Positions 2,288 to 56,530 of a stretch of DNA of 64,000 bases are shown piece after piece; positions within the stretch are counted from its first letter, which is position 1, and every line of letters begins with the position of its first letter. Both the position numbers and the translations under genes were made by a program. The notes below the pieces were generated by a model, which did not search any database, was not told the DNA's origin, and worked only from the letters and a program-made list of their open reading frames with translations. The DNA comes from Symbiodinium sp. CCMP2592 (lineage: Eukaryota; Sar; Dinophyceae; Suessiales; Symbiodiniaceae), in contig CAJNDT010002902.1 of the NCBI GenBank assembly GCA_905221615.1, positions 723,528-787,527 on the forward strand. The letters run 5' to 3'.

Positions 2288-5200
2288 CCCGTCTTTCTCC
2301 TTCCTAAACTTCCGAATCAATTTTTGTGGAGGCAGCTTTCAGTTTGACATTTTGAAGGAAATATCAACAGATGTTCACCGACACATTTTGATCCGGAGCA
2401 GGCTTCGGAGTATCGGAAAAACGCCGTGCATTTCTTGGCTAACTTCCAAGAGTTCTCCTTCTTCTTACAGTCTCACCTGCCAGGGTGGGTTCTAGTGTAC
2501 GACAGCTTTCGGGGTCCCTGCTGTGTGGCTCTATGCAACTGCCCAATCGGGAGCTTCGAGCCTTGAAGGTGCTTAGCCTGCTTTTTCTTCAGGATTCACG
2601 TCCGCTTTGGAAGAATCAGGGCCCAGGGCCTCTGGAGCTGCCGGGAACAGTCTGCACATGGCGGTCAGGTCATTGTCACCGTCGCCGAGCATGCAAAGGT
2701 TTTAGAGGTGCCTGCATGTCAATCTGACCAATTCAATGGTGGCCAGTTTCGGTGCACCGCGGTGTCGTGTTGTGGTGGTCGCTGTGGTTTCTGAGTGGCG
2801 GAGGCCTCCGGATACGAGGCCATTCTCGGGCGTGTAGCCTCGCCGGTGCCCGGCACCCTCGAGCAAGGGTCTCAACAGGCAAAGATGTGAGGAACACACG
2901 TGCGGACTTGCGGGTCTGCTCCGGCTGCAGGGGCGAGCTGTGCTTCAAGCGCCTTGATGTGGTCGAGGTCCAGGATTTTGGGCTAAGAGCGCCCATGTCT
3001 CTCTAGAATGACGTGCAAGCCGACAAGGCCGCCGGGAAGCTGGCGCCGACGCCGTTCGCGTCGCCGCTGCGCTTCCAGGCAGGAGAGAGCCTTTGTGTTG
3101 TGGAGTCTTGTGAAAGCCGTTAGTGTTGGACGTTTTCTTCCTTTTGGGAGGTTTTTGAGAGGCCAAAGCGCCTCGTGCTGGTCGGCCAGCTTGCCGACAA
3201 AGCTTTCGCCTCAGCTCGGAGCATGTTTCGCTGCAGCCCGTCCCGTACTTTCTTGTCAAGAGCTCAGCTCTAGTCTATGCCGAAGTCCATGACCGGAGAT
3301 GGCTTCAAAGTACATGAGACTCCTGCGAGTACGAAACATGTGAGTCATGCCACCGCATCGCACCAGCCGAAGCCCGCAACGCCGTCCCGGCAGAACTGCA
3401 GCTAAGTTACATTTCTTAAGACTTTAGTCCTGGCTATGGCCATGACGGATTCCAGAAGATTCTCACCTTTGAGGCTTGGAGGGAGGGCAGAGTGCGGTAG
3501 CGGAAGAGCAAGAAGAAACGATGCTGCACTATGTTAGAAGCCCTGAAGCTCAGCGGAAGGAAGACTCAAAAAGAAAAGACAGGGTGGGAAGAGACAGATC
3601 CCAGGGCTGCTTGCGCGGACTTGTAACGGTCGATGTCTCCTGTGTCACACTTTATCACCATGGTGTCCTCTGTACATTCCTTGCCAACATTTGCTGGCCT
3701 CAAATTCTGCACCCCGGCACTTGGTCAACAGCTTTGTGGCTGCACTTGCGGGCTCGCTCGTGAGTTGCTGATTGTTGCATTGTGGAGCTGGAAGCCCTCT
3801 TCATCCTTCTTCGGCCGGAGCTGGCGCCCTGGCTTGTGCCCTGCTGAGTACCACTGACCACACTCCCGTCACCCGTCCGAAAATCAACACGAGCCCGACG
3901 GCCTGGGCTTCTCCCAGTTCTGATCTCCTGTTCGGTGGCGAAATTCACACCAAGCCTTGTGCTGGCCGAATGCAATGTGCATCAAAGTCTGCGTTTCTTG
4001 ATCAACTTTCGGGTGGGTGCAGAGTGCAGCAGATGGTGCGATTGTGGAGAAAGGAGTAGTGCTCCAAAAATATTCAGATATCCTCAGTCAATCCTACACG
4101 AGTGACGAGCACCTAGCAGGTCGCGTAGTGTCCCTCAGGGAGTCTTCAAGATAGAAGGATGGAACAAGTTGTGGAAGCTGGAGTCAACCATCGCCGACGT
4201 TTTGGCATGCCGCCTTCGCGAGTACCTTGACATGTGGACTGGCCGAGTGTGTACAGCCAGAGGCAGGAGGAGTCAACCTCCCTGCCGGACCTTCCGCACA
4301 TTTGATCACACCTGTGCACTGACTCGTGGTACTGGGGTGTACGTTGGTGCTTCAAACCTAGGATTGCAGGACCCATGATGATACTTACAGTCTTACAGTT
4401 TAGACACCGGCAGGGCACTGGGACGGCTCTGCGATGCGATGTGTGGTGCTGCAGCGCGGCGGCGCCAGGCATCGAAGGCCCGCGCTGCCCCTGCTTTTGC
4501 TCATCGGCTCTTCAGTGATGTTCAACTACTTGTATGGGCTTGTTCAGATTGTGTCGGCTTCGTGCGAGGTACTGACCCGGGCACGACAGAAGTGCATCGA
4601 GCTCCGGGACAAGGATGCATCGCGGACTCTGTGTGTCAGCCTGTTGGAGAAGTTCAAGGCAGGAAATCCGGGGTTCGGCTTCTTGTCGGTGCAGCATGGG
4701 GAATGACATGTGCTCAAACAACATAGCCTCGGAAAGAGCATGTTCTCTCGAAGGACGACGCCGGCGATGACGCAGCTTGGAAGCAGAAGCGCGCAGACAG
4801 CGTCTCTGTGAACTTCAAGCTTCCGAGCCGAGCTCTGTAAGGACTTGCCTTTGCAGCATCTGCGGGCTGCGGAGCAGCACTTGGCCGCGGTGGAGCGCTG
4901 GCTCCGGGGCCAAGGCCCTGGGGCAGAGCTGTGCTGGAAAAGAGCCCACAGGCAGTGCCACAAGGGAAACGAGGCACATGAGCGCTCACACGAGGATGCT
5001 GGCCCTGGCCCTGGCCCTGGCCCAGGGAATGTCACAGCAACAGCACTTGCGTCGTTACATACCCCTCGCACGCGTCTGACCGAAGAAGGCCACTGCAAGA
5101 CCCGGAACCCTATACGTGCGGGCTGATTCAAGGCAAAGTGCCATCTGTTTTGACACGGTACCCTGGCACGTGCACTCATGTCCGCCCGGGGCCTGCCGAG

Positions 5201-17039: not shown

Positions 17040-17850
17040 AAGCTGGTTATCGGTTTGAAAAAAAGCTGCAAAAAAGCTGCCCGAAAGGCAATCCCATGAT
17101 GCAGCAAGTCCCGGTAAGGGTTGTGAAAAAGCTACGCAAAAGCTGAAACAGGCTGAAGTAAAGCTACATATACAAAGGTGACAGGCAGGACTTTGCTAGA
17201 ATAGAGATTGGGTAGCTTTTGCATAGCCGTTGCAGCCCCAAAGCGAGCATGGAGGGCGGAACGGAGTCTGGTGTGGCCTTCGTGGCTTCTCCCTAGGGAA
17301 AAGCTAAATCAAACCTGAAAAAAGCTAAAAAAAAGCTGAAGAAAAGCTAAATAAAAGCTGAAGAAAAGCTAAATAAAAGCTGAAGAAAAGCTAAATAAAA
17401 GCTGAAGAAAAGCTAAATAACAGCTGGAAGCAAGCTAAAAAGCTGCAATCTGACACAAATCTCCAGTCTCCCACAGTTCTGTGTGGCTTTTGCTTAGTAT
17501 TCTTTTCGGCATTGTTTAGCTTTTTGTCAGCTGTTATCTAGCTTTTTTTCAGCTTTCATTTAGCTTTTTTCCAGCTTTCCCTCAGCAGGAAGCCACAAGG
17601 GGCACCGTGCCCGGATCCCACATGGGACTCTGCCCCTCCCCTCCATCCTCTTTCTGGGGTTGCAAGGGCTATGAAAGAGGCTGTCCGTGTTCAATTCTGG
17701 CTGAGTTCTGCCGCTCAGCCTTTGCATATGTAGCTTCATTTTCAGCTTGTTTTCAGCTTTTGTTCAGCTTTTCCGTCGACGCAGGATCAGCTATTTTCCG
17801 CCTTTGTTTCAGCTTTTATTTAGCTTTTAATTTCCTTTTTTTCAACTGCT
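17040..17850. repeat. inverted arrays of AAAGCT / AGCTTTT
   Basis: From about 17040 to 17450 the + strand carries dozens of AAAAGCT-type words (AAAAAAGCTG, AAAAGCTAAAT). From about 17515 to 17850 it carries the complementary words (AGCTTTTT, CAGCTTTTATTTAGCTTTT). The two halves are separated by roughly 60 bases and form a loose large inverted repeat. AGCT is itself palindromic, so each half also has local self-complementarity. Confidence 0.85.
17331..17418. repeat. 22-base tandem repeat, four exact copies
   Basis: The unit consists of AAAAGCTGAAG followed directly by AAAAGCTAAAT. It is repeated four times without mismatch (17331-17352, 17353-17374, 17375-17396, 17397-17418) at the core of the forward AAAGCT array. 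Confidence 0.95.
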
Positions 17851-28639: not shown

Positions 28640-31600
28640 GCCCGAGCTAACCCTGAGGGTCGGTTGAAGAAGAATGCTTTAAGGCTGGTGTTGGATATGT
28701 TTGGGAATCCCAGGAGCCGGTGAAGGAGAGTCCCTATCACAACGGCTGCTGCGGGCTGGTCGCTGCAAGCCCTGTCTTCTTCTCTTGCTACTGGGCTTTC
28801 ATAGGCGCTGGGCAGGGCACATCTCATGGGGTTTTGATTCAGTCCTCAGGTTGTGAGGTTGCAGAATGCAAGGTTCGATGGGCATGGTCATCGCCTACTG
28901 TTTCTGGCTTGGCATTGAAGCCGCAGCTTGCCTGCACTGGACTATACTGGTTGCTACGACGACCGGCCTAGCATTGGTCGCTGCCTTCCAACTTTGTGCT
29001 CTGGGCCTTCAGTGTTCGGTCAGGACAACAACACGCACAAGTCGCACTCCCTCTATCAAGCCGAGGCTTAGAACTGTTGTCAAAGGATTGGGTATGAAGC
29101 CCTGCCTGTGCAGTGCCAGGTACGGGATTCTTCAGGGTTTTGGGACCATGGGGACGGTCTTCGGCTCGGGTGGTTAGTTGGAGGTCACAGCCTGGGCGCG
29201 GGAGACAGGGCATTTTCTCTTACGAAGGAGCAAAGCACGGGAAGGCTTTGCCCGCCGGGGACTAGAGTGCTACTGGTATCCATGCCGAGGAATCTCGGAG
29301 CGTTGGCCGTTGCAAGCAAGAGCCATGCAAATCTAATGTCGCGAAAGTCTCTCACCAAGCCCTCCTTTGTCCCATGCTCGCATAGAGGTTTTAAAACCTC
29401 GCATTCGCTGACCTGGCAGTCGTGCCATGTTTGCTTGTGGTCCGAGAGACCTTTCTTCGGCCGGCCTTTGTCAGGTCAACCCCATCTTCGCAGTGGTTGA
29501 GAACATCTTTTGTGTGGCTTTGTCTGCATGGGGCCTGGGAAACGGTGCCCCCCGGAGACTTTGAAAACCATCGTTTCGGCTTGCCCTGATCCTACATGGC
29601 TGCGACTGTCTTGACGATTTTGTTTGCCTGGAGCGCAGGGTGTTGTTACTGTACAAGCTCAGCACACGCGCACACAAACAAACAAACAAACAAACAAACA
29701 AACAAGCAAACAAACAAACAAACAAACAAACACGCACACACACACACACAAACAACCAAGCAACCAAACAACAAACAACCACACGAACACACAAACACAC
29801 AAACAACCAAGCAACCAAACAACCACACAAACACGCAAACACACAAACAACCAAGCAACCAAGCAACCAAGCAACCACACAAACACACAAACACACGAAC
29901 ACACAGCCACACAACACACACACACAAACACACAAACACACAAACACACAAACACACAAACACACAACACACACACAAACACACAAACACACAAACACAC
30001 AAACATACATACACACAAGCACACAAGCACACAAGCACACAAGCACACAAGCACACAAGCACACAAGCACACAAGCACACAAGCACACAAGCACACAAGC
30101 ACACAAGCACACAAGCACACAAGCAGGCACACACACACACAAGCACACAAACACCAACACAAACAGACACAGACACAGACACAGACACAGACACAGACAC
30201 AGACACAGACACAGACACAGACACAGACACAGACACAGACACAGACACAGACACAGACACAGACACAGACACACACACACACACACATGCATGATCTCGG
30301 TTCTCGGTTCGCCGACCCGCCCTTTCCAATGGTATCCCCCCACCGCCCCAAAACCGTCATCTGTCACGAGGATGGCGTCCCAAAGACGCCCGATCCGTGT
30401 GACAGTACAATTATATCCGGCACGATTCAAACGTGAGGCCGCCAAAGCGTCAACAGTCACCAGGATCGCGTTCCAAAAACACACCCGATCCTTGTGACTG
30501 TGGACACTTCTCAACGAAAAACGCTCCGACATGAGTGTCTTATACAAGGCAACCGTCACGAGGACCGCGTTCGATGACAGGCCCGATCCCCGTGACAGCT
30601 GGCCCGTTGTAACCTTGTGGCAATTGCCCCCAAATGCGGCAGCTGTGTCGAAGATAGTGGCCCTACGACCTACGATCAATAAAGCCATAATCTTTACCAG
30701 GCACGTGACAGAAGACACCCGACGACCAACCAAAGAAACATTAAGATGTTTGAGATAATGATGATGATGATGGTCATCGTCCCCATCACCATCATCATCA
30801 TCATCACATGATCATCATAGGGATGAGTATGCCAAACGCCCAAAGCAGACCCGAAAACGCAGGGGGGAACCACCGCAAGAAAACCCGAACCCACACCATG
30901 CCACAGACCCACCCCGGGACCACACTACACCACAGGGAGGGGGAAGCAACCCACCACCACACCACACCACACCACAGGAAGGGGGGGGCAGGGGAACCAT
31001 TGGTGGGGAAGGGGGGGGCGGGCCGAATCGGGATCATATGTTTACATTTAAGTATATATTTATATATGCCAAGTCCTGAAATAGATAGAGGTATAGGTTG
31101 ATAGATAGATAGACAGACACGCGCGCAGCTAGCTGCGGCACCTCGCAACGCAGGTGTTCTTCACTGCGGAGCTGATAATTCGCTTCTGTGGCTTTCGCAG
31201 AAAGCGGAACTGCTTCCATGATATGTGGTTCATCTTTGATCTGGCCGGGTCCCAAGTTCACAGATGTTGTACCGCTAGATGATGTGGCATGAATTCGTCG
31301 CAAAGCTCCCCGCATGCATAGACTGCAGCCATGCCATATACCGAGAGTGTGTGAGTGTGCATGTGAGAGTGTGTGCTTGTGAGTGTGTGTGTGTGCGCGT
31401 GCATGCTGAGATTTTGGTGATCCTGATGGTGGCCGAGCTTTGGATCGTTCCGATCATCATCATATTTTTGCCAGATCTGAGTTGGGAGCCCGGATGTCGG
31501 CTCCTGGAGAAATCAAGCCGATCTAGTCCGAGTGATTTGCAGAGCAGATGGCTCAACCCTTGCAATCTTCGGCCGTTGGTTTGTCTCGTAGATTGCATGT

Positions 31601-42075: not shown

Positions 42076-42660
42076 GCCCACACACAACACACGCACGAGA
42101 CACCCACACCAAACCACTCACCCACTCACCCACTCACCCACTCGCCGACTCACCCACTCACCCACTCACCCCACTCACCCACTCACCCACTCACCCACGC
42201 ACCCACGCACACACGCACCCACGCACCCCCCCTACACACACACAAGCGCAACACACAACGCACAACACAGAACACAGAAGACAGAACACACAACGCACAG
42301 CACCCCACGCACAACACACAACACCCAATACACAACACACGACACACAGCACACGACACACACGACACAGGACACCGGACACAAGACACCAGACACACGC
42401 GCACAGAAACACAGACAGAGACACACACACACACACACATTGCACACAACACACACAACACACACAACACACACAACACACACAACACACACAACACACA
42501 CAACACACACAACACACACAACACACACAACACACACACACACACACACACAACACACACACAACACACACAACACACACAACACACACACAACACACAC
42601 ACACAACACAGACAACACACATAACACACATAACACACATAGCACACACACAGAGCTCGC
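42076..42660. repeat. CA-rich microsatellite array 1
   Basis: Begins about 120 bases after the stop codon of the upstream gene. It runs through an ACTCACCC block (about 42117-42200), mixed ACAC/ACGC sequence, and an ACACACA repeat (about 42440-42650). The long frames on both strands here are repeat translations. Confidence 0.95.
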
Positions 42661-42935
42661 TCACACTGACTGATTCGGCCAAGAGAGTGAGAAGAGGAGA
42701 GTATGTTGTATGTTGTTTGTCTAATCTGGACACCACAGGGGGCCTGTCCTCAAAACTAATCTTGGCACCACAGGGGGCTGCCAAAAGGTTGCAGGTACGC
42801 CGAGTTGATCAGACTCGGTATCCCATGACTGTGGTAGCTTCGTTGAGTGCGGTCCCACAGCCATGCCGCACTCCCCTGCAATCGTGAAGGAGTGACCCTC
42901 TGCTCCCATGTGCTAGGGAGGTTCACACACACACA
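42661..42935. repeat. 275-base direct repeat, copy 1
   Basis: This segment immediately follows array 1. By eye it is identical over its whole length to 43989-44263, at a constant offset of 1,328 bases. It contains two internal copies of ACCACAGGGGGCNTG-like sequence. It lacks an open frame of interest and has no obvious LTR ends. In this copy the closing CA run is short and is followed by GCCCCACC. Confidence 0.95.
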
Positions 42936-43988: not shown

Positions 43989-45597
<1,609 letters not shown>

Positions 45598-46787
45598 CAC
45601 AAGACAGACGAACGGAGAGACGGATGAACAGCTGCCCGGCCAGGCACACAGGCAGCCAGGCAGGCAGTACACAGCAGACGCACACATACAGAGACCCAAC
45701 CATGCTCAGCGAAATTCGGGTTTCGCCAGCTAGGCGACGATGCTGTATGCATGTCTGAAAAAGTGTCAGTACATCTTTACGCAAGACACCGGAACACGGA
45801 GAAGGGCAAAGTTCGCATGCTGATGATGTGCCGATGTTGTCGCAGTCTTTGGATTGACGTATTTTCGCGATGCCAAGCTGCCAGGGGCTCTTCTTGGATT
45901 TGCTCCTCAAGCATGAATGCAAGCAAGGTTGTGTCATCACCGGACGGCTGGACGACTTCCTGGTAGACGAGACTTCACATGAAGTGCTCCTTTCGAGTGT
46001 AGTAGCATGGCAGGGTTATTTGTACGCGGAAACCGTCGTTCCTGCCAAGATGTTGGAAATCTCTCTGGGTCCCAAAGTCTGCTGTTGAATGACTCACCCT
46101 CGTGTTTCGTGCCATGGGCGACTGAGCACCCGATCTGTCATTACGGCATTTATTCTACAGCACTTCCGTTCACAATGCGCGTGGCATGGGAATTTTCGTG
46201 TTGCGTCTAGGTAGCAGGCGACTTAATGGATGTATCATTCGCTTCTTCGGAGGCTCGATATGTGATTAGTGTTAGGGGGGCTGCCAAGGGGTGCCTGGAT
46301 TGGTTCATGAGTTCAGCTCAGCACATGGGCTCGAGTTGTGAGCAATGCTCGACTTGTTTCAGGCTTGCGACAAGCTCGATTGTGCACCTGTCGCTCACGA
46401 GGGCTACCGAGCGACTCGCTTAGCTTTTGTGTTGGCCTAATGCTGGTTGGCAGGGATGTGCATGTAAACTGCAGTGATTGCCCAGTCCCGTCTGTTGAGT
46501 CTGTTACTGGGCATAGGTGCAATGTGCGGCATTACCTGGCATCGACAAGATCTGATAGTTAACTTGCCCATCCCAGTTTACGTGTGAACGTGCTCTGCAT
46601 TCCATGACGTTTTGAGGCCTATTTGACCCGCATGCTCGAGCATCTAGAGAAGAAGCTGGATACAGTGGCCTGCCTTGTTGACTGCAGCGTGCATATCAAA
46701 CATGCTTTTAGGATAGCTTGCAGCTCAGCATGATAGCAGTTGGTTTTGATTGACATGACCAACCTGTGAAGATCATGTATTGCCAAG
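45598..46787. other. no confident gene
   Basis: A + frame at 45870-46088 (LFLDLLLKHECKQGCVITGR then LDDFLVDETSHE) is protein-like and may be an exon. No motif was recognised elsewhere, and no repeat beyond the end of array 2. Confidence 0.35.
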
Positions 46788-49711: not shown

Positions 49712-49726
49712 ACACATGCATACGTA
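49712..49726. repeat. target-site duplication, left copy
   Basis: ACACATGCATACGTA, identical to 55373-55387. The pair brackets the element exactly, with the right copy following an A8 tail. Confidence 0.9.
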
Positions 49727-49910
49727 GGCTCGAGCAGCAGGACGTCCCCAGCCCGGGGAAGCCCCACGCCCGAATCCGGGCATAGCGAGCCGAAGCGCTC
49801 TGCGCAAGCAGAACATACGCGTCACACACTTCACTGCCCTAGGGGTCACACAGCATCATGCCATAGAGGCACACACAGCTCACTTAAGTTAGTGAGTACT
49901 TAAGTTAGCC

Positions 49911-50075
49911 ATGACAGCGGCGCCCTCGCCCGAGCAAGCCATGGCCCCTTCGGCGCCGACTGACACACCAGTTTCTCCTCCAGGGATCTCGCAACCACCG
50001 GCGGCAACAGAAGTAGTTCAAGCCTCCCCAGATATGGACCTAGAGTTAGTGAGAGAACTTAGGGACACCTGTTAG
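49911..50075 (+). CDS. short leader ORF of the retrotransposon
   Basis: ATG at 49911 opens a 54-codon proline/alanine-rich frame (MTAAPSPEQAMAPSAPTDTP ... MDLELVRELRDTC) that stops at 50073-50075. After that stop the same frame continues readable (KDTGITKGKVRKHYLFCW) for about 18 codons, so the stop may be a mutation in a once longer ORF1. No nucleic-acid-binding motif is visible. Confidence 0.45.
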   Translation: MTAAPSPEQAMAPSAPTDTPVSPPGISQPPAATEVVQASPDMDLELVRELRDTC

Positions 50076-50122
50076 AAAGACACTGGAATAACAAAGGGAA
50101 AAGTACGGAAGCATTATCTCTT

Positions 50123-53100
50123 TTGTTGGTAGCACGCGGGGATCATGCAGTCATCGTTACCCAATCGTGGTTGGTAATGCAACTCCAATTCATTAAGGGA
50201 CCCTACCCTTGGAAAGCCCAATGGCTCACACCCAGGCTATCCCTGCCGCCCAGGTGCATTCCGATGATCTCTCCCAGAACTCCACCGGTACCTCAACAGA
50301 GACAGCCGCAAAGCCTTCTCCAACACCCTATCCTGAATTCCAAGCCCCCTCCAGGATGTAACCTAACAACCCCATCGACGACGATCACTTACGTTACCAA
50401 GACTTACGCTACCAAGGTGCCAAAGCGGCACCAGACGACGGTACGACGGACGACAACTTACGTTACCAGTCATTTACGTTATGCCCATTGGGGCGCGAGT
50501 TTCACCGTAGCTGGCAGAAGCGGTAGTTTAGGACACTGTGAGGGGGCTACCAAGGCAGTGAACGCTGTGAGGGCAGCACGCGTTTTCTCACAAGTAGCTT
50601 TAGAGTTTCACTTTTTCCAGGGTGCACGCCTCCGAGCTAGGGTTTTTTGCGGTTTTTTAGTGCTCAGGAGACCTCTGCACTCGTCTCACCCCACTTCTCA
50701 CTCCTCGACAGCCCCGCTCAGCACCGCACGAGTGAGTTTTTCACGTTTTGCTGGTGGCTTAAGTAAGGTAATGCACGCCCTTAATGGTAACATCATGTAT
50801 CCTGCGGCAAAGCCAAAGCCGCGCAGCTCTTTATGGAGAGACTCTTTCTATCTGCCCAATGGCATGACGGTTTTTCGATATGCCTTTTACGGCAAAGATT
50901 CCCTCTGGCTACACGCCACGAGAAGAGGGCATTATTCTGAATTAGAGACGACGCGCAGTGACTCCAAAACCCTATACGGGCACGTCCTGAGAGCGGTGGC
51001 CTCCAAGAAAGGCGAGCCGGGAAGCCGCTGGCCTCTTTTGCAGCAGTATAAGAATCAGCTTGGACCTATCACTAGCAACAAAAAGATAAGCTCAACGCAA
51101 TATTGCCAGCATTCGATTTCTGGGACCTATTCTGGCCCGGATAAGACGACGGACGACCACTTACGTTATCCACACTTACGTTATGATTCAGCTTGCGGTC
51201 CAGTAACGACATCTAGAGCGCCGTTAAAGCCAAGCGGCTACCAACACCGCGGAGTTCACGGGGGATCTCATAGAGGATATAGATCGCAGACAGCGGTCGA
51301 AAGAAGATATGATCACTGGCAAGCGCGACGTCGCGCTCGGCGCCAGGATTACCGGCAGTGGAAGACACACCACCAGGACGTTGCCCTGAAGGTGCACGGC
51401 AACAATAGTCCGCCCCCGATCCACCTAAAGCCGACTACGCAAACTCGTGTAACTAAACAGCTATCCCTTGCTCAACACAACTCTACAATTTCTTCTTATA
51501 ACCAAACCCGATCCTCTGACTCTGCTTTGTCCCTACCGCTTCCTACTGGCACCCCTATAGGAATTGGCACATGGAACGTAGAAGGTCTCAAAGAAGTAGC
51601 CAAGTACGACCTCCTTTTGAACTTTTGTAAACAGTCACAAGTATCTCTCCTTTGTGTTCAGGAAACCAAGGTTACTTCAGCTCACACATTCCAGAAACTA
51701 GGTTGGGAAATTTTGCACTCCGGTACCCCAAAAGACCCGCACCATGGGGTTGGCTTTTTTGTTTCTCCCTCCTTACGCTCTCATGTTAGGGATTTTAAAC
51801 CACACTCCTCTCGTATCTGCGAAATCACGCTCGACACTCTACCGCATCCTATCACTATCTTTATTATATATGCTCCTAGTACTGTTGATACTCCCGCATT
51901 GGACCGAGAACGTAAATCCCAATTTTGGGAGGCGTTGGAGGATATACTTCTTAATCACCCTAACTCCTCCTACCTCTTGTTACTGGGAGATTGCAACGCC
52001 AGACTTGACCCCAATATCGACATATCTCAGTCCCACGTCGGACCCCACGTGGTGGGCCGCAGACAAACCATCCCAGACGTAGATAGAGACAACGCTCTCT
52101 TCTTAATCGATCTCCTTGAAAGCCACGGCTTGGAACTGCCCCAAACATTCCAGGATTTGCCTTTTCGGAAACGGGTCTCCTACAAGGAAATAACCTGTAA
52201 AGACCCCCTTCTCGAAGGCGAAGACGTCGCCGACTGGACGACCCTCGATTACGCTATTGCGCCTCAGGGCTTCCGCCAGACTCTCACCTTTGTCGGCGCG
52301 AATTTTCAGCAACTCGTCAACTCTCGCCACCTCCCGCTTATTTTTTCCCTTAAAACACAATTCCAGTCTTCTCCCCCAAAACAATCTCTCCGAAAACCAG
52401 ATTACACACAACTCTCCTCATTTTACACGCAATTGGAGCTTTCCCTCCTTGACAAAACAGACAATGCTTTTATCTTTCCACAACCATCCTCCACGCAAAT
52501 CATTGCTTATACTGACGGCTCCTGCCCTAACAACCGCACAGTCTCCTTTGATAACCCAGCCGGTTGGGGTTTTGCCCTCACATCGGGATTGGATCTGCCC
52601 GCACACCCCCCGGTGGACTCCACCTGGCTCCAGTCTTGGGGTAAGGTTCGTGCTGCTCCTACTCAGTACCTGCCGGAGCTGCCGGGCTCCAATACAAGAG
52701 AGCTAAAGGCACTCATTGAACTCTTTGACTTCTTATTATATCATTCCACTTTTCAGTTAGGTGACCAACTTACCATATACACAGATTCACAATACGCCCT
52801 CTCCCTCCTTCTTGGCTCCTCCGTCCCGACCACGCACCACCAGCTAGTCACTCTGGCCCAGCAGTACTACACGGCACTCAGATGCCGTTTTAGGGTACAC
52901 CTCTTGAAGGTGCCTTCTCATGAAGGTATAACAGGAAATGAGTTAGCCGACACCTTGGCTAAACGCGGAGTTCACTCCTTTGGATCTCTTGGCAGGTTCG
53001 CAACTACTCCTTCTAAATCTCTCCAGCCCCCTGAAATAGGCTTTAACAGACAAGGATGGGACTCCTTAGCCGTTATGGAGCAGGATGATTTTCTCTGCTC

Positions 53101-53885
53101 CAAGATCAAAGAATACAGCACTCTCATTCCTATCCTGCCACTATCCGCCAAGAAGCCTTGGATTTCCCCCCATACACTCCACCTCATTCAGGTCTTTCAA
53201 AATACTCAATTCACTGATACATCCGCCCTCAAAGCGGCCAGAACAGCTATTAAGAAATCCGCCCGCCGAGACAAAAAACTCTTCATTGCTCAGAATCTCC
53301 AGGAGGACTTTTACGGCAGCTCCATCCAACAATGGACCCATGCCCGCCAAATTAGATCCGAATTCCGCCCGCACGTTGCGGGCCTGTATAACCTCCAAGG
53401 AAAACTTGTCTCCTCTTCCCAGCGCGCCACCACCTTTGCCGACTATCTCTCCACACAGGTGTGGCATACGACAGGAGACCCCCCTATTCACCAACATAAC
53501 CCCCACTCTCCTGTTCCGGAGATTGACTCCCCCTTTACAATGCATGACCTGGACTCTGCACTCAAAAGACTCAAAAATCATAAAGCCTCCGGTCCCAACG
53601 ATATTCCTGGAGAAATTTACAAGCATGCTCCTTACATACTGAAACTGTACCTTCTCTCTCATTACAACCAATGTTATCAGGAGGCTAGAGTACCCCCCTC
53701 ATGGCTCTTTTCTGAAGTCGTTATGATTTTAAAGAATACACAAAAAGACGCCCGTCTCCTTTCCAATTATCGACCCATTTCTCTTACTAATATATCTTAT
53801 AAGATTTTCGCCTCTATGCTACAACAGAAATTAGAAAAAGGCTTAGATTCCAGAGTAAGGGACAGGCAGTTTGGCTTTCGTAAAA
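50123..53885 (+). CDS. retrotransposon polyprotein: endonuclease, RNase H, RT N-part
   Basis: The open frame is continuous from about 50123. No ATG is certain and the first 450 codons have no recognised domain. An apurinic-type endonuclease starts near residue 478: GTWNVEGL, CVQETKV, IYAPS and GDCNARLD carry the expected Asn, Glu and Asp. The usual S-D-H near its end reads S-R-H (Arg at 52325-52327). An RNase H domain follows at about residues 793-950, with AYTDGSCP, NTRELKALIE, YTDSQYA and HEGITGNELAD giving all four acidic positions. The RT begins near residue 1136 (KASGPNDIPGE, NYRPISLTNISYKIF, RDRQFGFRK). The frame then breaks in an A-run at 53882-53885. RNase H placed before RT is unusual. 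The track frame runs on to 54193, but that tail is out of frame and meaningless. Confidence 0.9.
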
Positions 53886-55293
53886 CCGGTCCACTACCCA
53901 GCCTATACATATTATTCGCCGTCTCTTGGAAGTCTATGAAAGGCAAAACTCACCATTTCATGCCCTCTTCATTGACTGGAGCAAAGCCTTCGATTCCGTT
54001 ACCTTTACGGCTATCGATGCGGCTATGGTACACGTTGGGGTCCCGGACCATACCCGAAAAGTGGTTATGGCTCTGTACGATAACCCTACCTTTTCTGTCA
54101 GAGACTCTTTGCAAAAGTCTAGCATACGAACACAGACTAAAGGCTTACGTCAGGGATGCCCCCTGTCTCCTTATTTGTTTGGCTTTGTTCTGACTCATCT
54201 ATTTCATGACGTTGAAAATGATTATCAAGCCAGATTTGGAGAAATCTCTGGGGTATTTCATGTCCCTTCACCGCTGTGGGACTTAGAGTATGCTGATGAC
54301 ACTGTTCTCCTTTCTTGCTCAGCAGAACAACTTAACCGCCTTCTCCACTCAGTCCAGCACCATGGCTTCAAACGGGGCCTCCTTCTCAATGAAGATAAAT
54401 GCGAGCACTTACGGTTGCATTCGCCTCACCGCATATACTATGCGCCCTTGGCGCAAACCCTTTGCCAATGTAAATATTGTGGCGGCATCCGCGCCCCTCT
54501 TACTCCGGTCCCTCTCTCGGAAGAGATCAAATATCTCGGGGTTTATCTAGACCCAGCTAACAGTAACCGTAAGAATACCTCTTATAGGATCTTTCAGGCG
54601 GTCGCAGCTTCGAAGCTGCTCAGGCCGTTGCTTACCCATACCGGTCTCCCGCCGAGTTGGAAACTCACGGTATATAGGAGCATTGTTCTCTCTATTCTCA
54701 CTTATGCTATGGATAGTGTTCTACTCACGTCACCACAGCTTCGAAAGCTTGATTCCATACACTACAAAACATTGCGGCGTATTTTTAAAATCAAATCCTC
54801 ATTTTATCATAGGGTTCTTGACCCTTCTGACTCCCAATGCTCTAACCAGTACCTTGCGTCTCTTTCCTATAGATCCCGTAAGGTCATTACTCCCTCCCAG
54901 CTATACTCGCAACAAAGACTGCGGTTATTTGGACACATACATAGGCATCCTGAGTCCCTAGAAAGTCAGTGTACCTACATGATTTCGCATGCGTATAGAC
55001 ACATCAGGGCTCCTAATAGATCGGGCCGGCCTCGCATACATTGGGCCGAATCCTGCATGACACAGGCTGCGGAACGTATTGATCATTTACTCTCGGACGC
55101 TGCCCCCTCCCATGAGCAAATACAACACAGCTTCTATCAGTTACCCAACCCTAATAGCATTGCTGCAGCACACAGCTCCTCCGGACTAGTATGGATGGAC
55201 AATACGTCCCTTTATCGCAAGGTGCAGCCACGCTGCCAGGACCGTCAATTCTGGGCGAAAGTAGTACATAAACCTCCCAAGGGCCGTGTATAA
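53884..55293 (+). pseudogene. retrotransposon RT palm, thumb and C-terminal part (frameshifted)
   Basis: Continues the polyprotein in the -1 frame. Starting just after the A-run it reads RSTTQPIHIIRRLLE, the motif expected to follow QFGFRK. It then has the RT catalytic motifs FIDWSKAFD (A), GLRQGCPLSPYLF (B) and YADDTVLL (C), then GLLLNEDKCEHL (D) and IKYLGVYLD (E). Both catalytic aspartate sites are intact. Between D and E lies a small CQCKYCG cluster. The C-terminal part contains QRLRLFGHIHRHPESL and GRPRIHWAESC, common in LINE C-termini. It ends with a stop at 55291-55293. The open frame first offers an initiation-like codon at 53926, but it surely represents the second half of one ORF. 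The break is consistent with loss of one A from an original A5 run; programmed -1 frameshifting or a sequencing error are alternatives. Confidence 0.9.
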
Positions 55294-55372
55294 TTTAAGC
55301 CACCAGTAACTGAATTAGGATAGGTCGGTGCTGATGGGCTTGTAGACGACAGCCTTCCGCGTTCGAAAAAAA

Positions 55373-55387
55373 ACACATGCATACGTA
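55373..55387. repeat. target-site duplication, right copy
   Basis: ACACATGCATACGTA directly after the A8 tail, identical to the left copy at 49712-49726. Confidence 0.9.
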
Positions 55388-56530
55388 CGCGTTCGCATAA
55401 GCATGCTGCATGTAAGTACACAATTGCCTGGACAGAATGTGGATGATAGGGCACACCTGAGAGTCTGCAGTCCTTCGACCATGCCTGAATCGTCCACGAG
55501 GAGGTCGAGGTCTGCGTGGAATTGGAACCATGGCAGAGCACTCCCATCGGTGCCTTGGTGAAAGAGATTGCGGAGTGTGTTGAGTGAAGAGGAGAGACGG
55601 ATGTGGACTTTGAGAGCTTTGCAGAAGCTGGGAGTGGTGGTACGTACAGCAGTGGTACTCGTGTTCAAGCACCTGGTGATCACAGTGCTTTGCTCAGACA
55701 CCGCTATGGGCTGGAGCAAGATGGGCGATGCATATGCCCTGGGCGCACAAGTGACTTGCGAAAGCCAGCCTCCCGGGAAATAGCTGAGACATGCTGTGAC
55801 GCACGACCAGATCATGACATGCATTGCCACATTCGACTGAGGCTCCTTCTTCTGGAATGTGGGCGCCTCAGCTCTGCTTCCGCGCAAGCTGCGTTTCTCT
55901 GATGCGGCCGAGGTCGGTTCCGGAAGCTGCCAGTATGCCAAGTGCCCGGACAACTCCCTTCGCAACGTGGAGGACTGGTCGCTCTCGCAGCTCTCCGCCG
56001 GCCTTGTACCCCCCAAGCTTCCTCTTGCTGGCAAGGACGGCGCTCCGAACATCACCGTCCCCACGAAGGGCCCGGGGGAGTGCCCATGCAAGGCAGAGTT
56101 GCGGTCTGGGGTGTAACAAGGGTATCTCGCGGATAGCGAGTCTGACGATGTTTGCAACTCCCCGCAGACGAAGATGCAGCGCCGCATCGAGGCGGCGCCC
56201 TCGCTTTGGACTCGAGGGATGCTGTTTCCATCGTGGCTGGAAGCAAAACTCCCTCTCGTTCAGAAGATCATTGGATGCTGGGCGCCCTCAACCACTGGGC
56301 ACCCTCAACCGCTGTCCCGGATCAGGAAGCGAAAGTGCAGAGCAAAGCCGCGTTGACGGCCACCTGTTTCTCTGGGTGCAGGGCTCGGGTAGAGATGCTG
56401 GGTGCAGCACTTCAGGATCGGGCCAGGAGCTTCGGAGGTCCTCCAGAGCTTGCAGTGTCGTGCCTGGCAGACCCCATCCCAATCGCACCAAAGCTACCCA
56501 GGTTGAGTCAGCAAAGTCCGGTGTACTGGG
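55388..56530. other. unassigned, possible exons
   Basis: A + frame at 55859-56116 reads SCQYAKCPDNSLRNVEDWSL then KLPLAGKDGAPNITVPTKGP and CPCKAEL and is protein-like, perhaps an exon of the gene that follows. No domain was recognised. The minus frame 55315-56187 crosses the end of the retrotransposon and is a shadow. Confidence 0.35.

Follow-up and report, generated by a model that had tools for sequence, protein, structure and literature searches.

Where does the ribonuclease H (RNase H) domain of a long interspersed nuclear element (LINE) stand in relation to its reverse transcriptase (RT), and is a given placement the property of one insertion or of a whole lineage? The question is raised by a retrotransposon in a stretch of Symbiodinium sp. 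CCMP2592 DNA of 64,000 nucleotides (nt; hereafter the window), in which an RNase H is encoded ahead of RT. The element very probably belongs to a lineage of non-long terminal repeat (non-LTR) retrotransposons of the apurinic/apyrimidinic endonuclease (APE) type, in which RNase H is placed between the endonuclease and RT, the window copy being a broken short form. The full element consists of a first open reading frame (ORF1, 1,047 amino acids), a stop, a spacer of ~540 nt and ORF2 (1,508 amino acids, probably with its own ATG); the window copy is a short form from which most of ORF1 is deleted, with a further 308-bp deletion and an RT frameshift absent from both of its sister copies. Insertion of such an element would start with a nick of the lower strand by the endonuclease at a T/purine step, after which the freed T would prime on the A tail and RT would copy the RNA; RNase H, just ahead of RT in one protein, would remove the template, and a second nick 12-16 bp away would result in the duplication. 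Each of these enzymatic steps, including the action of RNase H on the template, is proposed from the sequence. The window sits within an assembly of 1.098 Gb in 5,383 contigs, which was the set searched for other copies: the whole element gave at least 49 matches, the RNase H domain 150 (best 150 of 391 candidates scored) and RT 122 (best 119 of 3,569 candidates scored).

Along the element, Pfam identifies Exo_endo_phos, RNase_H and RVT_1 in that order (single-domain E-values of 9e-13 for the endonuclease and 7e-14 for RNase H), as a preliminary description of this DNA had correctly listed them, without commenting on the arrangement as unusual. The same order is found in two open ORF2s elsewhere in the genome, with the endonuclease at residues 446-592, RNase H at 756-915 and RT at 1174-1440 (RT E-value ~2e-36). 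No RNase H match follows RT in this element, and only 72 nt lie between the ORF2 stop and the A tail. In keeping with an APE-type non-LTR element, the endonuclease is upstream of RT, the RT motifs are of the LINE type, terminal repeats are absent, and variable target-site duplications and an A tail are present. From the last endonuclease motif to the RT entry motif there are 422 amino acids, compared with 251, 249 and 232 in three LINEs that gave no match to RNase H, an excess which fits an RNase H domain. The LINEs used for comparison come from four LINE-bearing contigs (L001, L002, L003 and L004) in genomes catalogued as bacterial metagenome-assembled genomes, where they are most likely eukaryotic contamination. 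The last endonuclease motif is SRH in all 19 readable copies and TDH or SDH in three comparison LINEs.

The RNase H domain aligns with HIV-1 RNase H in PDB and has His at the place where the archaeal type has Arg; a single-sequence structure model of it was unusable (predicted local distance difference test score, 37.9). All 16 copies that could be read in one piece have the five catalytic residues, the D-E-D-H-D set named for RNase H in the available part of PMC4640811; two of these copies, C111 and C613, carry an internal stop. In the split copies C2223, C5102, C5309 and C761 every readable residue is as expected, with one falling in an alignment gap in C761. The domain is under strong purifying selection: between C1447, a long copy with both frames open, and the window copy, dN/dS is 0.04 for the endonuclease, 0.04 for RNase H (dN 0.050, dS 1.359) and 0.02 for RT, and the corresponding values between C1447 and C501 are 0.05, 0.07 and 0.03. 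Higher RNase H values against C1447 were obtained for C111 (0.25, at a low dS of 0.070) and for the broken copy C5309 (0.24).

Across the assembly, every RNase H and RT row was paired by position where both lay on the same strand and no more than 3 kb apart. RNase H is upstream of RT in 68 of the 122 RT rows and downstream in none, the remaining 54 having none within 3 kb. Of the 86 RT rows with less than 70% identity, 38 have RNase H upstream, 0 have it downstream and 48 are without; the 38 come from 35 contigs, their RNase H and RT matches being separated by 742-1,534 nt and their RT identity ranging from 37 to 66%. In contig C5056 the RNase H and RT matches share one reading frame within the same open frame of 2,513 amino acids. 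The full endonuclease-RNase H-RT order was observed in this family only; for the diverged elements, the observed order covers RNase H and RT. By RT identity, RNase H stands upstream in 38 of 57 rows at 37-69% and in 0 of 29 at 36% or less, a distribution that would fit a single capture at the base of the lineage.

In the literature found, RNase H ahead of RT has been described only for the oomycete element Utopia, for which the available text of PMC4640811 (2015) terms it unique, although the architecture may be catalogued in Repbase. Utopia resembles the Symbiodinium element in having RNase H upstream of RT, but in the same text it has a restriction-like endonuclease, a U2 small nuclear RNA target and an archaeal-type RNase H (Arg), whereas here there are an APE, dispersed targets (nine different ones in the nine copies with a perfect duplication) and His. 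In place of a restriction-like endonuclease Pfam found the APE, and a diverged one was not sought with a dedicated profile; the same limit applies to a dual endonuclease of the Dualen/RandI type, the C-terminal 240 amino acids being without a Pfam match. In the I group, according to the part of PMC2881922 that deals with the I factor, APE, RT and RNase H are likewise carried in one ORF2 with a His-type RNase H, but there RNase H comes after RT, whereas here it comes before and is downstream in none of the 122 best-scored RT rows. Plant Ta11 and oomycete L1 elements are also APE LINEs with an acquired RNase H; however, as far as the available part of PMC5348765 describes them, theirs is of the archaeal type and C-terminal, with a CCHC motif upstream, whereas here RNase H precedes RT and a pattern search found no CCHC in C1447. 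SymbioLINE-Dnmt is similarly a two-ORF dinoflagellate LINE; in the accessible text of PMC5890265 its ORF1 has a DNA methyltransferase, whereas in ORF1 of C1447 Pfam found neither a match above cut-off (best E-value 0.1, unrelated) nor a DNA methyltransferase. The RNase H domains reported in 134 Symbiodinium gene families, in what is available of PMC5670126, could include such elements. Branches were long in an RT tree of seven rows, which held two R2 and four unnamed LINEs.

The ends of the element are defined essentially to the base, and they recur in its other copies. The 5' terminus was checked in 11 copies (eight long and three short), with C5129 and C1591, which is masked upstream, left out. 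AGGCT(C/A)GAGCAGCAGGACG stands at this terminus in 10 of the 11, that is in seven long and all three short copies, and was not found in C2223, whose fetched upstream DNA is homologous only ~2.4 kb above the shared region. The 3' terminus is the same in 18 printed copies, with one base changed in two of them. Perfect duplications of 12-16 bp abut the 5' terminus in nine of the 10 copies that have it, no exact duplication having been found in C501. In C776a and C4545 the A that precedes GGCT lies outside the duplication, which places the 5' end at 49726 and not at 49727; the preliminary description was right that the ends can be fixed, and the recurrence of the 5' end, for which it proposed a genome search, was observed, but it had this end one base too far in. 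Its perfect 15-base duplication is present, ACACATGCATACGTA occurring at 49712 and 55373, but since its 15th base, A49726, is shared with the element, only 14 bp of it are certain. This 15-mer is found exactly twice in the window; of the 22 pairs of identical 15-mers that stand in direct orientation there at a distance of 3-8 kb, it is the sole one outside tandem arrays. At the other end the A-run spans 55366-55373, and its final A belongs also to the duplication. In all nine copies with a perfect duplication, the first base of its upstream unit is A, preceded by T (6) or C (3), which would imply a lower-strand nick at T/A or T/G.

With the insertion removed, the flanks of the window copy rejoin as a 69-bp perfectly alternating pyrimidine-purine tract, and therefore the target lay inside this tract rather than at the edge of a TA microsatellite, as had been proposed. 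Alternating runs of at least 20 bp, this tract included, make up 445 of the 64,000 window bases. The insertion was also described as fairly recent, which is supported by the intact duplication and by 98-99% identity to two sister copies. As a separate observation, the flank just after the duplication (55388-55395) starts with CGCGTTCG, the same eight bases as the 3' terminus of the element, probably by chance. Pairing of the template with this downstream string was considered and set aside: it is not needed for priming, and none of the 17 other printed copies has the string directly after its duplication. C501 has a similar string ~35 bp downstream. No significant RNA fold was obtained for a hairpin in the 3' untranslated region (UTR; 55291-55372, z -0.46).

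The window copy is not nearly full-length, as it had first appeared, since it measures 5.65 kb against 8.55-8.65 kb in seven longer copies (8,547-8,648 bp). In C1447, ORF1 has its ATG at nt 281, encodes 1,047 amino acids and ends in TGA at 3422-3424, with ORF2 in the same frame. Both frames are open in C1447 and C413, and in each of the remaining five long copies at least one of the two is disrupted by stops or frame changes. Four long copies, C1447, C413, C454 and C2135, are 99.3-99.7% identical over the 5' 3.3 kb and have separate duplications, which suggests recent activity. The window copy, C776a (98% identical to it) and C4545 (99%) are a short form without most of ORF1, ~2.5 kb, and the two sisters share the window element end to end. 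Compared with C1447, C776a is missing ~2.26 kb and 0.27 kb from ORF1, its total length being 2.6 kb less. In a tree of 18 copies, without C4545, the window copy and C776a are nested with the long-form C776b (0.976) and then with C2223 (1.000). In C4545 (L044, G000:C4545:299145-307097), an insertion of ~8 kb of other DNA splits the element near its position 4,734. In the window copy, the 308-bp deletion brings in a stop that ends the ORF1 remnant; an intron was rejected as the explanation for the missing segment, whose ends have no GT/GC/GA-AG pattern and share a 2-bp overlap. The RT frameshift lies in the A-run 53882-53885 and is not found in C776a or C4545, and the stop-to-stop frames run from 50063 to 54193 and from 53884 to 55293.

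A paired 10-bp motif, ACTTA(C/A)G(T/C)TA, with the two units 15-16 bp apart, occurs four times in the window, where none is expected, and always within the element. The pairs occupy four homologous places: one directly upstream of the start codon of ORF1, two within the spacer, at 69 nt from each other, and one in the linker of ORF2 that precedes the endonuclease. All four pairs are present in the four near-identical long copies, the window copy and its two sisters; the other eight copies read, some of them not to the 5' end, have one to three. In the genome the exact paired pattern was counted 45 times, compared with 0 for a reversed control, and every listed contig with the motif also has an element DNA match, except C5180 and C5253, which have a match to RNase H instead (71-72%). 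The phase of the motif relative to the ORF2 frame differs, and the pairs are therefore taken as nucleic-acid signals, which may represent an internal promoter or an RNA-binding site. Most characterised 5' UTRs hold internal promoter activity, according to the available part of PMC2881922.

Alternative explanations concern the domain order, the insertion site, the mobility of the short form and the junction between the two ORFs. As the window holds a single copy, the endonuclease-RNase H-RT order could be chimeric or a product of misassembly at this locus, but this is refuted, with next to no probability left to it, by the same order in two open ORF2s elsewhere, the 68 of 122 RT rows with RNase H upstream and the same-frame pair of C5056. 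A family-wide microsatellite specificity might be invoked for the choice of insertion site, with two of the nine perfect-duplication copies in simple repeats (the window copy and C1447, in (AGT)n) and AGT/ATT-type repeats at the 3' flanks of C1591 and C501, in which no perfect duplication was found; with the other seven of the nine not in simple repeats, such a preference is quite improbable. Movement in trans deserves more weight, although the balance is somewhat against it: long-form proteins may have moved the window copy, and possibly the short form as a whole, as a non-autonomous derivative. The short copies lack most of ORF1, there are long copies in which both frames are open (C1447, C413), and none of the three short copies is intact (the window copy has its 308-bp deletion and RT frameshift, C776a an in-frame ORF2 stop, and C4545 a frame change and an insertion). 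However, dN/dS between short-copy ORF2s is 0.29, 0.26 and 0.27 (43 synonymous/41 nonsynonymous, 20/17 and 39/35 differences), as if selection had persisted in the short lineage.

At the junction, the codon separating ORF1 from what follows is TGA, then CTA, in 11 of 15 copies; the others have CGA (C5309), AGA (C776a and C4545) or AGG (window). This TGA could be a programmed readthrough stop (UGA CUA) giving one fusion protein, and the same frame on both sides, the 180 codons without ATG after TGA, which are open in C1447, C413 and C501, and the finding that shuffles of the 1.8-kb 5' region give 179 open codons only in the top 5%, making an open 540-nt spacer somewhat unlikely by chance, are consistent with it. 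Differences from C1447 pooled over eight copies point the other way. At codon positions 1/2/3 they are 0.047/0.012/0.205 at the end of ORF1, flat (0.102/0.091/0.094) from TGA to the next conserved ATG (window 50771), and biased as in coding sequence again (0.053/0.016/0.172) over the 102 codons that follow this ATG; where the endonuclease begins, they are 0.065/0.027/0.180. Because of this codon-position test readthrough is ranked second and considered unlikely, and the region is read as ORF1, a non-coding spacer of ~540 nt and an ORF2 that probably starts at the conserved ATG. After the 102 codons the rates are 0.087/0.058/0.078: the stretch at window ~50987-51316 (C1447 element nt 4271-4590), inside ORF2 and holding paired motif 4, diverges little, and to an equal degree at all three codon positions, as though the constraint acted on the nucleic acid and not on the protein.

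Some observations weigh against the lineage and layout preferred here. The spacer, read as non-coding, is open in frame in C1447, C413 and C501; Asp is missing from the SDH motif of the endonuclease, which may therefore use a different chemistry; and the 54 RT rows without an RNase H row within 3 kb include all 29 at 36% identity or less, among the best-scored candidates. The more distant elements may lack the RNase H domain, or have it beyond the best-scored candidates, and the best-scored rows neither prove nor exclude LINE families without RNase H. Coordinates of the window copy are collected in the table.

Table. Features of the retrotransposon copy and its flanks, in window coordinates
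Feature	Position	Strand	Remarks
5' target-site duplication ACACATGCATACGT	49712..49725	+	15th base, A49726, common to element and duplication
Whole element, short form	49726..55372	+	start AGGCTCGAGCAGCAGGACG, end CGCGTTCG-A7(8)
Paired motif 1 (ACTTAAGTTA x2)	49882..49907	+	3 nt upstream of ORF1 ATG
ORF1 N-terminal remnant	49911..50075	+	ATG 49911
308-bp deletion junction	50066..50067	+	2-bp CA overlap; segment kept in C776a and C4545
AGG at place of ORF1 stop codon	50234..50236	+	TGA in 11/15 copies examined
ORF1-ORF2 spacer	50237..50770	+	equal substitution rates at three codon positions
Paired motif 2	50387..50411	+	
Paired motif 3	50456..50481	+	69 nt after motif 2
ORF2, first part	50771..53881	+	conserved ATG (8/8 compared copies) to frameshift
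Paired motif 4	51159..51183	+	within ORF2 N-terminal linker
APE-type endonuclease	51566..52336	+	Pfam PF03372 covers first part; last catalytic motif SRH, not SDH
RNase H, D-E-D-H-D residues	52496..52972	+	Pfam PF00075, E 7e-14; PDB matches
Linker before RT	52973..53509	+	no Pfam match in 52979-53560
RT, split by frameshift; YADD at 54289	53510..54546	+	Pfam PF00078; PDB LINE-1/R2 matches
ORF2 C-terminal region and stop	54547..55293	+	no Pfam match in 54571-55290
3' UTR	55294..55365	+	
A tail	55366..55372	+	
3' target-site duplication	55373..55387	+	

Outside the element, Pfam gave nothing above cut-off for 20 window ORFs, and no spliced leader was found in the window. Genome size, a G+C content of 54%, TpA at 0.51 of expectation and the absence of Pfam matches from these ORFs would be compatible with a dinoflagellate. 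A direct repeat of 275 bp (42661-42935 and 43989-44263) is 100% identical between its two copies, ~1.3 kb apart, with a CA-rich array before the first and after the second. Long tandem arrays of CACA type occupy 29671-30285, 42079-42652 and 44252-45606, with a strong strand asymmetry (AT skew of 0.70 at 44-46 kb). Self-comparison also detected an imperfect inverted repeat (17127-17376 and 17512-17772; 72.5% over 262 bp), which overlaps tandem units of 11 and 22 bp. Scans of viral contigs found no relatives of the element, and phage records gave no match.

It is somewhat more probable than otherwise that a large and old APE LINE lineage acquired an RNase H of non-archaeal type, placed between endonuclease and RT, in an event separate from those of the I group and Utopia, and that this domain has been strongly selected since, in a lineage that also has an altered SDH motif, a private paired cis motif preceding its coding blocks and an ORF1-deleted short form with its ORF2 under selection. 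The presence of RNase H before RT in an APE LINE, and in numerous divergent elements within a single genome, is relevant to the manner and frequency with which LINEs gained RNase H, as well as to whether RNase H must follow RT for template clearance. Additionally, natural experiments on which parts a LINE requires are offered by the altered motif of the endonuclease and by a short form that lacks most of ORF1.

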